A stretch of 32,500 bases of DNA from contig JAGAVG010000071.1 in assembly GCA_017942035.1 (NCBI GenBank), positions 1 to 32,500 of the forward strand. Direction: 5' to 3'. Every line of letters starts with the position of its first letter. Within the stretch, counting starts at the first letter, position 1. The DNA comes from a bacterium (GTDB lineage: Bacteria; Cyanobacteriota; Vampirovibrionia; Gastranaerophilales; Gastranaerophilaceae). A program made the position numbers and the translations under genes. Of the stretch, positions 392-31,177 are shown piece by piece. Below the pieces are notes generated by a model, which saw only the letters and a program-made list of their open reading frames with translations, made no database searches and was not told the origin of the DNA.

Positions 392-1243
392 TTATTTCTT
401 AACTTTTTTGAAATAATCGGGATTGCTCAACGCCTCATAAGTACAAGTGACATCAGGATTTGATAGACAATTTGTATTTCTATTACCGATATATGGAAGT
501 TCATCACCGACAGGTGCTAAAGTTCCTGACGGCAAAATTTCAAACATAAAAAGGTCAACACCGCCCTTGTTCGGCTTCTTCTTCCATCCGTTAATATCTA
601 TAGTAACAAGAATTTTACCATACCCGTCACCATAATCAAAATAAACAAAAGTTCCATCATTCAATGCAAACATCCCATCGTTAATCAACAAATTGCTTCC
701 ATAATTAGTATATGTCTTAGAGATAAAACCTTGTAATACACCAGCATTAGGGAAACTATCAATGGGGAAAATTGTTTTATCACAACTTGTTGACATGTAT
801 TGTATACATATCGAAGATTTAATTATGTATTTATTGCAAACTTTGGTAAAATCAATTACATCTGGATATGATCCGCCAAAATCTTCAAAAAAGACTCTTT
901 GCGTTACTTGAGCCATAACAGAGTAACTTTTTTTAAAACTTTCTCTTAAAACGGAACTTTGATGATTAGTAATGACTGCCGGCAGCGTCATCGCCGCCAC
1001 AATTCCAATTATTCCGAGAGTGATTAAAACTTCGGCCAAAGTGAACGCGTTTTTGCTTTTTACCCTCTCTCTTTGTGAGAGGGTTGAATTTGTTAGTGAG
1101 CAGTATGCGAACTTACAAATTCGGGAGAGGGTTTTATGTAACGATTTTGACCCCTCACCCTGCCCTCTCCCACAAGGGGCGAGGGTATGTAATGACGATA
1201 CCGGCTTGCCTTCCTGACCTCTTGACATCTGTTCTTCTATCAT
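392..1243 (-). CDS. Type IV prepilin-like protein 1 with a 66-residue repeat-derived leader
   Basis: This is a secreted pilin or pseudopilin precursor of 283 aa. The leader of about 66 residues ends ...KSKNA, followed by the class III signal FTLAEVLITLGIIG with Glu at +5 and a hydrophobic N-helix. Prepilin peptidase should cut before F67, leaving about 217 residues; position -1 is Ala rather than the usual Gly. The mature part is Cys-rich and carries the family motif DINGWKKKPNKGG-DLF near the C-terminus. I chose the start at 1243 because AAGGAGG lies six to seven bases upstream; an in-frame ATG at 1285 has no such site and lies inside the conserved UTR. Leader codons come from a dispersed palindromic repeat (1061-1187). 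Which pilus or secretion system it serves cannot be told, since no assembly genes are present. Confidence 0.85.
   Translation of the reverse strand: MIEEQMSRGQEGKPVSSLHTLAPCGRGQGEGSKSLHKTLSRICKFAYCSLTNSTLSQRERVKSKNAFTLAEVLITLGIIGIVAAMTLPAVITNHQSSVLRESFKKSYSVMAQVTQRVFFEDFGGSYPDVIDFTKVCNKYIIKSSICIQYMSTSCDKTIFPIDSFPNAGVLQGFISKTYTNYGSNLLINDGMFALNDGTFVYFDYGDGYGKILVTIDINGWKKKPNKGGVDLFMFEILPSGTLAPVGDELPYIGNRNTNCLSNPDVTCTYEALSNPDYFKKVKK
1061..1187. repeat. Palindrome-rich dispersed repeat inside the prepilin 1 leader
   Basis: This block is made of short inverted pairs: CCCTCTC with GAGAGGG, AATTTGT with ACAAATT, and CCCTCACCC-type stretches facing CCCTTGTGGG-type ones. The same block, in the same frame and almost identical, recurs in prepilin 2 at 22310-22643, where further repeats split it. 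Its three-fold length and lack of stops in this frame keep the prepilin reading frame open. Confidence 0.8.
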
Positions 1244-1459
1244 ATTAATCCTCCTTTTCAGGCTTAAACTACTCTTTAAATTCATGCACCATAATTTATA
1301 TTTTGGTGCGAATAGGCCTGAAACTCACTAAAACATACCTTCTCAAAATTCAAAAATTTCACAAAAAACGACAAATGACCACTTGAAAATTGGTGGAAAA
1401 TATTGTATAATAGGGCTATAAAAAACTCGCATCAAAATATAAAATTTGGTGCGTTTTTT
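1244..1459 (-). promoter_or_regulatory. Conserved prepilin upstream module (promoter, long 5' UTR, palindromes), copy 1
   Basis: On the minus strand a promoter reads -35 TTGATG (1430-1435), a 17-bp spacer and -10 TATTAT (1407-1412). The -35 overlaps the right arm of an imperfect A/T-rich palindrome (GCACCAAA facing TTTGATGC). About 100 bases downstream a second palindrome with arms GCACCA and TGGTGC lies at 1286-1309, just before the ribosome site. The whole block matches the regions before prepilins 2 and 3 almost base for base. The transcribed leader would be about 155 nt. Confidence 0.8.
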
Positions 1460-6341: not shown

Positions 6342-6447
6342 TTGACAATCTTTGCAAGAATTTATTAAGGCATTTGGGTACTAAAATTTGGTGTATTTTT
6401 TTGCCTTAAATTATCAGAATATTAATATTTATAAAGTTTTTTGTTTT

Positions 6448-16064: not shown

Positions 16065-16158
16065 TGTCATGCTGAACTTATTCAATTTTTTCTGGTAGAC
16101 TAAAGTCTACCCTACGATTTATCTTAGTGCCTTTTACTGAAATAAGTTCGGAATGACA
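16065..16158. mobile_element. MITE-like element carrying a nested GGTAGACT palindrome
   Basis: The ends are inverted copies: TGTCATGCTGAACTTATTCA (16065-16084) against the complement of 16138-16158 (TGTCATTCCGAACTTATTTC plus A). The ends resemble those of 12081-12167. At 16094-16111 it carries the palindrome GGTAGACT-AA-AGTCTACC, which recurs in the prepilin 3 leader (26831-26848). The rest of the 16041-16349 gap shows only short repeated words (CTTATCGTCTTAGTG-like) and the clpB promoter. Confidence 0.65.
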
Positions 16159-22036: not shown

Positions 22037-22253
22037 AAAAAAATACACCAAATTTTATATTTTGATGCGAGTTTTTTATAGCCTTATTATACAATATTTT
22101 TGAGCACTTTTCAAGTGGTGTTTTGTCGTTTTTTAATGATTTTTTGAATTTAAAGAAGGTATGTTTTAGTGGATTTCAGGCCAACTCGCACCAAAATATA
22201 AATTATGGTGCATGAATTTAAAGAGTAGTTTAAGCCTGAAAAGGAGGATTAAT
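22037..22253 (+). promoter_or_regulatory. Conserved prepilin upstream module, copy 2
   Basis: -35 TTGATG (22062-22067), 17 bases, -10 TATTAT (22085-22090). The small hairpin CACTT-TTC-AAGTG overlaps the expected start region. The second palindrome, arms GCACCA and TGGTGC, is at 22188-22211, and AAGGAGG is at 22241-22247. The expected 5' UTR is about 155 nt. It matches copies 1 and 3 along its whole length. The remaining 21929-22036 shows nothing notable. Confidence 0.8.
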
Positions 22254-23333
22254 ATGATAGAAGAACAGAGGATTAGAGGACAAGAAGGCAGGCAAGAAAC
22301 GTCATTAAATACCCTCACCCCTTGTGGAAGAGCGAAATTGCGTACGGACGGAGCGCGAGGAGGCAGAGGGCGAAGGCTTGTCGACAAAATGGCAAAGCCA
22401 TTGCAGGCGACAACCGTAGACCCGCTAAACGCCGACGAGCAAGAAGCAAAGCGAGTCCGGATAGCGGAACAGCGAGGGCGGATAAGTCCACAAGGACTAA
22501 AAGCCCGAGTCTGTGGAGCTTGGAGCAATTTCAAGACAGGGCAGGGTGAGGGGTCAAAGTCATTACATAAAACCCTCTCCCGAATTTGTAAGTTCGCATA
22601 CTGCTCACTAACAAATTCAACCCTCTCACAAAGAGAGAGGGTAAAAAGCAAAAACGCGTTTACTTTGGCCGAAGTTTTAATCACTCTCGGGATAATCGGC
22701 GTAGTGGCGGCGATGACTTTGCCGAACTTTATTTTTAATTACAAAACAAAAGTCATTGTGACCAAGCTTAAGCGCAATCAAAGTATTATGTCGCAGGCGT
22801 TCAAGAGGGCTATAGCAGAAGAAGGTGAAATCAGCGGCTGGGGCTTGGAAACAGATACAAAAGAAAGTGTAGAGCTTATTGCATCTAAAATAAAACCTTA
22901 TCTTAAAATTATTGACGATTGCGGAACCGAAAGATGCGAGTCATACACTCAAGAATATTACCATATTGATCAAAAAACACAACAATCCCAGGGAAAAGTT
23001 AAAGATTTTGGCAGTGATATATTTTATAAATTTAGACTTGCAGATGGTACAGAATGGTTTATTCGTTCTTCTGTTGCTATATACTTTGATATAAATGGGA
23101 AAAAGGGGCCAAATTCTTTAGGTAGAGATATTTTTCAATTTCATCCGTTAGTAGATGGAACTGCAATTGCTGCCGGTATGGGGCAAGATCCAAAAAGTCA
23201 TGGTTGGCCATATTGTAACCCAGATGCCGGGCAGGGGTGGTATTGTGCCGCATGGGTTATTTATAAAGAAAACATGGATTATCTTAAATGTGCTGATGAA
23301 TTGGAATGGAATGGGAAAACAACATGTAAATAA
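22254..23333 (+). CDS. Type IV prepilin-like protein 2 with a 135-residue leader
   Basis: This is a secreted pilin or pseudopilin precursor of 359 aa. The leader is about 135 residues, then FTLAEVLITLGIIG with Glu at +5; cleavage would fall after Ala135, leaving about 224 residues. The mature part contains the family motif YFDINGKKGPNSLGRDIF and several Cys near the end. The leader equals that of prepilin 1 except for an in-frame insertion of about 69 residues. That insertion is Arg/Ala-rich and has the composition of translated repeat DNA. AAGGAGG lies six bases before ATG 22254; the ATG at 22212 is inside the second UTR palindrome region and is rejected. The gene is followed by a terminator shared with dnaK. 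Confidence 0.85.
   Translation: MIEEQRIRGQEGRQETSLNTLTPCGRAKLRTDGARGGRGRRLVDKMAKPLQATTVDPLNADEQEAKRVRIAEQRGRISPQGLKARVCGAWSNFKTGQGEGSKSLHKTLSRICKFAYCSLTNSTLSQRERVKSKNAFTLAEVLITLGIIGVVAAMTLPNFIFNYKTKVIVTKLKRNQSIMSQAFKRAIAEEGEISGWGLETDTKESVELIASKIKPYLKIIDDCGTERCESYTQEYYHIDQKTQQSQGKVKDFGSDIFYKFRLADGTEWFIRSSVAIYFDINGKKGPNSLGRDIFQFHPLVDGTAIAAGMGQDPKSHGWPYCNPDAGQGWYCAAWVIYKENMDYLKCADELEWNGKTTCK
22310..22643. repeat. Nested dispersed repeats in the prepilin 2 leader
   Basis: The outer block matches 1061-1187 on the other strand. Inside it sits a second repeat whose ends (22338-22353 and 22452-22466) match 12765-12889. Inside that sits a third (22368-22444) matching the ssb-rpsR gap. The frame stays open throughout. 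Confidence 0.8.
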
Positions 23334-26534: not shown

Positions 26535-26747
26535 AAAAACGCACCAAATTTTATATTTTGATGCGAGTTTTTTATAGCCTTATTATACAATATTTTTAGA
26601 CACTTTTCAAGTAGTTGTTTGTCGTTTTTTGATGATTTTTTGAATTTTAAGAAGGTATGTTTTAGTGGATTTCAGGCCCACATGCATCAAAATATAAATT
26701 ATGGTGCGAAAATTTAAACGTCAGTTTATGGCTGGAAAGGAGACAGG
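26535..26747 (+). promoter_or_regulatory. Conserved prepilin upstream module, copy 3
   Basis: The first palindrome (26541-26564, arms GCACCAAA and TTTGATGC) overlaps -35 TTGATG (26558-26563); 17 bases, then -10 TATTAT (26581-26586). The second palindrome (26684-26707, GCATCA facing TGGTGC) lies before the ribosome site AAAGGAG (26737-26743). Confidence 0.8.
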
Positions 26748-27602
26748 ATGCTAGAATATAAAATTATGGAAGGCAAAAATTTGAAAGAGGATAATATGAT
26801 AAAAAATAGTCATTGCGAGCGAAGCAGTAGGGTAGACTTTAGTCTACCAGAAAAATTGGATTGCCAATTTGCTGATCGTCGTAAAACGGCGTTTACTTTG
26901 GCTGAAGTTCTAATCACTCTCGGAATAATCGGCATTGTGGCGGCGATGACGTTGCCGGCGTTGATTGGTAAGTATCAGAAATTGCGCAATGCTACTCAAT
27001 TAAAGGTTACTTATTCAATCATTTCGCAGGCTTTTAAACAAGCTGAAGCTGATTATGGAGATTCAAAGTTTTGGTTTTCTGATATGTATGGCAAAACTTC
27101 CGGGAGTGAAGCTTATCTCAATGAGCTGGCGGATAAATATTTTTTACCTTATGTTAAAGTCGCAAAAGACTTCGGTTATCAGTCATTAAATAATATAAAA
27201 TATGGCAATTTATACTACCTAAATAAAACAAAATTTACAAATGCACCATATACTATGTCACGCATTGTAATTTTATCTAATGGTACTCTTGTATGGTTTA
27301 CTATTACCGGAAACTGTACTATCGGCAGTGACGGGCATTGTGCTTCAGATTGGTGGTTTACAGGTTTTCGAGTATATTTGGACATTAACGGAATGAAAAA
27401 ACCAAACACTCTCGGCAAAGATGTTTTTGTATTAAATTATCAACTGTATAATACCAACGATTCCAGTTATGCAAAATTATTGCTTTATGGAGCAGGTAAT
27501 TCAGAAGATGGATTAAAAGAGAACTGTTCTTTAAATGGATCTGGGCTTTCTTGTGGTGCACTAATTCAACACGACAATTGGAAAATTAATTACGATTGGT
27601 GA
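26748..27602 (+). CDS. Type IV prepilin-like protein 3 with a palindrome-encoded leader
   Basis: This is a secreted pilin or pseudopilin precursor of 284 aa. A leader of about 48 residues ends RRKTA, then FTLAEVLITLGIIG with Glu at +5. The mature part of about 236 residues contains YLDINGMKKPNTLGKDVF, the family motif, and conserved Cys residues near the C-terminus. Leader residues SHCERSSRVDFSLPEKLD are encoded by two dispersed repeats (26809-26825 and 26831-26848). AAAGGAG lies five bases before ATG 26748, which aligns with the start of the other two genes. A second ATG at 26796 also has AGAGG before it and would shorten the leader to 32 residues. The body differs from genes 1 and 2. Confidence 0.85.
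   Translation: MLEYKIMEGKNLKEDNMIKNSHCERSSRVDFSLPEKLDCQFADRRKTAFTLAEVLITLGIIGIVAAMTLPALIGKYQKLRNATQLKVTYSIISQAFKQAEADYGDSKFWFSDMYGKTSGSEAYLNELADKYFLPYVKVAKDFGYQSLNNIKYGNLYYLNKTKFTNAPYTMSRIVILSNGTLVWFTITGNCTIGSDGHCASDWWFTGFRVYLDINGMKKPNTLGKDVFVLNYQLYNTNDSSYAKLLLYGAGNSEDGLKENCSLNGSGLSCGALIQHDNWKINYDW
26809..26848. repeat. Dispersed repeats inside the prepilin 3 leader
   Basis: GTCATTGCGAGCGAAGC (26809-26825) is followed by the palindrome GGTAGACT-TT-AGTCTACC (26831-26848). The palindrome and about 15 flanking bases match 16085-16115 on the other strand. Confidence 0.75.
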
Positions 27603-30884: not shown

Positions 30885-31139
30885 TTACAATTTATATGGA
30901 TAATCTTCTTTGAATTCCCATCCGTCATGCATTAATAACCCGCTGCAATATGCCGAATTAGATTTACATTCATTTAGAAGATCCGTTCTGGATGTAAAAG
31001 TTTCGCCAACAAAACTACAAAAATATTTTTGTTCATTTCCACAGTGATTTATACTAACACTACCACCATTACATAAAAGAAAAATAAAAATATCTTTTCC
31101 ACGCTGGTTTGGTTTCTTTTCTCCATTGGCACCAAAATA
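30885..31139 (-). pseudogene. 3' fragment of a prepilin-like gene joined to the promoter-module palindrome
   Basis: The minus strand encodes YFGANGEKKPNQRGKDIFIF, then a Cys-containing stretch (about 50 residues), and ends CSGLLMHDGWEFKEDYPYKL-stop. The motif NGxKKPN..GKDIF is the conserved C-terminal part of prepilins 1-3. There is no start codon, signal or N-helix, and a stop lies in frame just upstream. Directly upstream (31128-31160) comes the same palindrome and AAAAAACGC flank found at the outer edge of the three prepilin modules. The gene body between promoter palindrome and C-terminus is missing. Confidence 0.75.
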
Positions 31140-31177
31140 TAAAATTTGGTGCGTTTTTTGTTAAATTTTATTATAAA

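Follow-up and report, generated by a model that had tools for sequence, protein, structure and literature searches.

A predicted set of about 110 invertible promoter segments in front of prepilin genes in a Gastranaerophilales genome

Results

The window, a stretch of 32,500 nucleotides from contig JAGAVG010000071.1 (assembly GCA_017942035.1), contains three copies of a non-coding module that occurs about 110 times in the 1.99-Mb genome of a gut relative of the cyanobacteria. Each copy is very probably an inverton of ~120-140 bp placed before a prepilin gene, and together the copies would switch about 110 pilin-like surface proteins on and off. The copy number, the gene association, the two orientations, the hybrid sites, the invariant boxes and a linkage break in one of the sites can be read directly from the DNA, that is, from the stretches around the module copies and the contig ends. 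From these we infer ongoing switching, an enzyme that performs it and a role in phase variation.

The module and its sites

The regions before prepilins 1, 2 and 3 of the window align end to end with ~89-92% identity. All three contain TTGATG-17-TATTAT and two palindromes (22045-22068 and 22188-22211 in unit 2), and the homology starts sharply at A6-CGCACC. An earlier note on this DNA had described such a shared module, and the likeness is indeed far beyond chance, a pattern for a 40-nt core giving 106 matches in the genome as compared to 0 for the reversed-pattern control. A promoter-based pattern gave 111 matches. The whole-genome search that the note had proposed thus raises its copy number from three to about 110. 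The two palindromes, present in all three regions as claimed, are separated by ~120 bp. One is an inverted repeat of the other, with 22 matches in 24 positions (consensus). We call them site L, GCACCAAAT-TTTATA-TTTTGGTGC, and site R, GCACCAAAA-TATAAA-TTATGGTGC, both 24 bp long, so that the segment is flanked by inverted repeats as in an inverton. Their 6-bp cores (positions 10-15), which are inverted relative to each other, are constant in 66-67 of 67 units.

In unit 2, site L (22045..22068, plus strand) has 9-bp arms around the core TTTATA and an A-tract in its outer flank, and site R (22188..22211, plus strand) has the core TATAAA, inverted compared to L, and no T-tract outside. The predicted invertible promoter segment between them (22069..22187) is in the common orientation. 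Prepilin 2 follows (22254..23333, plus strand), with a long leader and an N_methyl motif; its probable start was placed by the AAAAGGAGG before the ATG. In unit 1, site L (1429..1452), site R (1286..1309) and prepilin 1 (392..1243, probable start placed by the ribosome site) are on the minus strand, and in unit 3 site L (26541..26564), site R (26684..26707) and prepilin 3 (26748..27602) are on the plus strand. A 175-bp tandem repeat (two full copies and a part) fills the contig end directly after prepilin 1, at 1-393.

The prepilin genes

Module copies with enough downstream sequence are essentially all found before a prepilin gene (FTLAEVLITLG motif), the exception being the end of contig C29. 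The earlier proposal of a shared control for a set of prepilins was right in this respect, and the set comprises about 110 copies. By the exact motif pattern the genome has at least 125 prepilin genes, as compared to 0 to 52 in five relatives. Their N-terminal prepilin motif marks the controlled genes as coding for surface or export proteins, the kind of gene that is subject to phase variation. Among the 36 units where an automatic rule found both ribosome site and ATG, the leaders, 9 to 135 residues long, were open and in frame in 35, and the genes therefore look intact and usable.

The leaders also carry in-frame interspersed repeats (window 22254-22660 and 1045-1243, and other units), for example CTCTCACAAAGAGAGAG and GTAGGGTAGACTTTAGTCTACC. 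The latter is a dispersed palindrome, which occurs between genes as well as within prepilin leaders (window 16082-16115 and 26827-26860). Some prepilins that have no module (L173, L178, L179, L181 and L207) have tandemly repeated leader units (FTLAEVF-SHFAG-RRK...), which are copies of the cleavage-site motif ahead of the real one.

Promoter direction

The promoter scan placed the best promoter of the segment, TTGAAA-17-TATAAT with a score of 11/12, on the strand that faces away from the prepilin. It is located at 22086..22114 on the minus strand in unit 2, at 1383..1411 on the plus strand in unit 1, and at 26582..26610 on the minus strand in unit 3. Both boxes are exact in 91 of 92 distinct segments, and the upstream half of the spacer is variable, with 35 forms. 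By consensus, then, there is a promoter inside the segment that points out of it, as in invertons. The gene-facing TTGRTG-17-TATTAT, present in every copy, is weaker, 8-9/12. The earlier note had TTGATG-17-TATTAT driving the prepilins, which is probably wrong, the strong promoter pointing away from all three window prepilins. The sequence that the note took for a 155-nt UTR lies for the most part upstream of the flipped promoter.

Outside L there is an A-tract in 79 of 85 flanks, and outside R a T-tract was found in 0 of 87. A transcript leaving through L would, because of the A-tract, form a hairpin followed by a U-tract, and the consensus L hairpin (-11.4 kcal/mol, then U6, z -4.25) suggests that L together with its outer A-tract acts as an intrinsic terminator. 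The R hairpin is weak, -7. In unit 2 the terminator-like element, L with the outer T-tract on the minus strand, covers 22038..22068, and its arms are weaker than in the consensus. As the strong promoter faces away from the prepilin and towards this putative terminator, the common orientation, including all three window copies, is probably OFF; the assignment of ON and OFF follows from promoter consensus. The opposite assignment, in which the common orientation is ON, had been implied by the promoter chosen in the note, and was reversed by the promoter scan and the conservation of the boxes.

Both orientations in the assembly

Among distinct junctions, 90 on the L side were in the common orientation and 4 inverted, and on the R side 67 were common and 2 inverted, plus that of contig C27. 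These belong to five or six units. The only complete inverted copy, C77:56946-57112, lies within a contig of 83 kb, is flanked on either side by unique DNA and is not a fold-back; an intact prepilin reads leftwards from its R, and a unique ychF region lies beyond its L. The distance from its -10 box to the ATG is 82 nt. The outer arm of its R is L-like, and the junction is not a clean L/R hybrid.

The other inverted junctions are at contig ends. Contig C1 ends with leader, R and inverted segment, running for 134 nt with no competing branch, and C27 ends shortly past an inverted R-side junction of the same kind. The end of C47 has an inverted L-side junction and is not a fold-back. Contigs C29 and C82 end in a unique flank, L, the segment, L again and the same flank, and thus show both junctions of one unit; these hairpin ends could come from a mixed population or from a fold-back chimera. 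Where the arms could be distinguished (C1, C29 and C82), the sites were hybrids in which the inner arm came from one site and the outer arm from the other. A fold-back artefact as the sole cause of the inversions is ruled out by C77 and C47, and is possible for the hairpins of C29 and C82.

Both orientations are thus present, as in an inverton, in different units, and one unit is seen in both states only at the C29 and C82 hairpin ends. Since only about 5% of the units are inverted, flipping could be rare or a thing of the past. Exact 141-mers within modules were common to contig ends, the pattern that would be expected from an assembler with k = 141.

Exchange of segments between genes

The mean identity of the module was 88.6% (67 complete units). 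Fourfold sites in the conserved prepilin N-terminus were 49.4% identical, and the alignable bodies ~29% identical at the amino-acid level, so the claim in the note that the module is conserved above the gene bodies was confirmed. The similarity of the modules and that of the pilin bodies were uncorrelated (r = -0.01). The two halves of the segment had correlated distances (Mantel r = 0.25, p = 0.002). The same held for the leader and the DNA between R and the ribosome site (r = 0.65), but not for the segment and that DNA (r about 0). Column 160, in the inner arm of R, showed no association with leader type (eta2 0.01). The association became significant at column 172, in the outer arm (eta2 0.20), and stayed so beyond it; a few segment columns before R reached nominal significance (eta2 <=0.13). 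The linkage break in R, and the lack of correlation between module and pilin similarity, show that segments are exchanged between genes and that the boundary is the middle of R.

Site-specific exchange fits this movement. Linkage inside the segment is also low, and gene conversion may therefore contribute to the homogeneity. The note had considered spread by duplication and conversion; copying or conversion holds in part, as segments reassort between genes, and recent duplication alone is excluded by the fourfold-site divergence, synonymous sites just downstream being near saturation. A mobile unit with conserved flanks or a conserved 3' end was also rejected, the flanks on both sides being mostly unrelated between units.

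Candidate recombinases

The genome encodes XerC/D-like proteins and two phage-type tyrosine recombinases, one of them with a serine-resolvase-like N-terminus. A further five frames, of 456-618 aa, code for serine recombinases. None of the genome's tyrosine and serine recombinases could be linked to the L and R sites. A tyrosine recombinase of 181 aa, consisting of the catalytic domain only (L222 1432-1977, G000:C69:88232-88663), is a candidate invertase. It scored 48 bits against models of tyrosine-type DNA invertases, far under the curated cut-off of 222, and similar proteins are found in G001 (L220) and G003 (L221), genomes without the module. The 9-6-9 layout of the sites makes a tyrosine enzyme the more likely type.

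Relatives and databases

The full-length module was found in 0 of 58 relatives, two of them of the same genus. In 287 other genomes of the family the promoter pattern, at two mismatches, gave 0-2 matches each, about the control level. GTDB contigs and IMG/VR gave no match to the module in a search that possibly left out the species itself. One window protein has its closest named relatives in Candidatus Gastranaerophilales genomes. Inverted repeats before prepilins were seen in 2 of 16 cases in G001 and 1 of 4 in G002, as compared to 2 and 0 in shuffles, which is chance level. In G003 there were 6 in 20, and these look like interspersed repeats.

G003 is a relative from the same family with 52 or more prepilin genes. 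The 5' sequences that its loci (L146-L165) have in common are different ones. Runs of 8-14 G occur in 11 of 20 sampled upstream or leader regions, and in none of 70 units of the window genome. Such poly-G runs are likely a slipped-strand switch, which suggests that members of the family have made their prepilins switchable by different routes.

Discussion

We propose that L and R are recombined by a site-specific enzyme, more likely a tyrosine recombinase, and that the segment would flip because the 6-bp cores of the two sites are identical in inverted orientation. In the ON state TTGAAA-17-TATAAT would face the gene, and transcription would pass R and then cover a leader of ~80 nt and the prepilin. 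In the OFF state the same promoter would face away and run into L, where hairpin and T-tract would terminate the transcript. Recombination between units would swap segments and help to keep the copies alike. It is conceivable, if on the whole doubtful, that a single recombinase both flips the segments and swaps them among the ~110 pilin genes, with a handful ON at once and the promoters kept near-identical.

Duplicated gene 5' ends, homogenised by gene conversion of the RecA type, would give the low linkage inside the segment, with the rare inversions as by-products or assembly fold-backs, and two inverted cases are indeed hairpin contig ends. We consider this unlikely. The inversions in C77 and C47 are not fold-backs, C1 runs inverted for 134 nt without a competing branch, the linkage break is confined to 12 nt in the middle of R, and the cores are constant; the near-saturated synonymous sites downstream exclude recent duplication as the only cause.

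A fixed shared promoter and 5' UTR, where one regulator binds two operator palindromes and co-regulates the prepilins, would explain why nearly the same palindrome is found at the -35 and again ahead of the ribosome site, and why every copy has a promoter of 8-9/12 that faces the gene. It is quite improbable, as inverted copies exist, the stronger and invariant promoter points the opposite way, the linkage break falls in the middle of R, and a symmetric operator has no need of constant, inverted, asymmetric cores. The palindromes, for which the note had suggested a regulator, behave as recombination sites and not as operators.

The ~110 dispersed copies with terminal inverted repeats could also be taken for a MITE-like or promoter-carrying mobile element with L and R as its ends, and the window has lone and half sites that fit this. 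A lone L site (31129..31152, minus strand) directly abuts the 3' portion of a prepilin (~30885-31128, minus strand), with the promoter segment and the prepilin 5' end absent, and a half L site (6382..6402, minus strand) stops near the middle of the palindrome and is followed by unrelated DNA. Such an origin is nevertheless very improbable, because complete copies are not spread over varied sites but lie in the same place before prepilins each time, the conserved sequence runs past R into the leader, and what is seen outside the prepilin loci is limited to lone or broken L sites. One more complete lone L site, L187 (G000:C6:22106-22129), has neither promoter segment nor a prepilin signature after it.

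That the 5' UTR is a structured cis-regulatory RNA, also suggested in the note, is hardly credible in spite of the strong non-coding conservation and a possible hairpin before the ribosome site, and the RNA element was rejected: the UTR folds no better than shuffles (z = -0.6), it matches no Rfam family (a tRNA is the only Rfam hit in the window), the check for compensatory changes found none in the R hairpin (C-G 48, U-G 17, C-A 2), and the same palindrome is present at L, upstream of the proposed start site.

If the segments are invertible, this would explain how a gut bacterium keeps more than 125 pilin-like genes, and the choice of pilin in single cells could be tested with existing metagenome reads. 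The loci also serve as a warning, as they fragment assemblies.

Promoter inversion itself is well known. Our text searches of the literature found nothing that links invertons or promoter inversion to Gastranaerophilales or prepilin families, and no report of a small genome with ~110 near-identical invertons that all precede members of one protein family. In Bacteroides fragilis, the enzyme Mpi acts in trans and inverts promoters at 13 or more sites (PMC5903667, PMC11892184). In a gut community of 125 strains, the largest group of invertons with shared inverted repeats comprised 72 members in total, and the genome richest in invertons of any kind had 181 (PMC11892184). The segments described here are similar to these in that a promoter lies between short inverted repeats, scattered before genes for surface structures, with an apparently common enzyme. 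They differ from those of Bacteroides in number, with ~110 near-identical copies in a single genome of 2 Mb, in that all of them precede genes of one protein family, in belonging to a Gastranaerophilales lineage, and in that the segments reassort between genes.

The promoter of a surface gene is also flipped by small tyrosine recombinases in Escherichia coli, where FimB and FimE act on fimS. A small tyrosine recombinase likewise flips promoters or leaders of surface genes in the RecV switches of Clostridioides difficile (PMC5903667). The genome studied here resembles both in having its 181-aa catalytic-only tyrosine recombinase, but that protein is only a candidate, with relatives in module-free genomes and 48 bits against a cut-off of 222.

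For type IV pilins, DNA rearrangement is known from Moraxella bovis and from pilE/pilS of Neisseria, where the coding sequence itself is inverted or converted. Pilin inversion in the former and pilE/pilS variation in the latter are cited in PMC11868660. As in these bacteria, DNA rearrangement would vary type IV pilin-like proteins in the present genome, with the difference that here the promoter would flip and each gene is complete.
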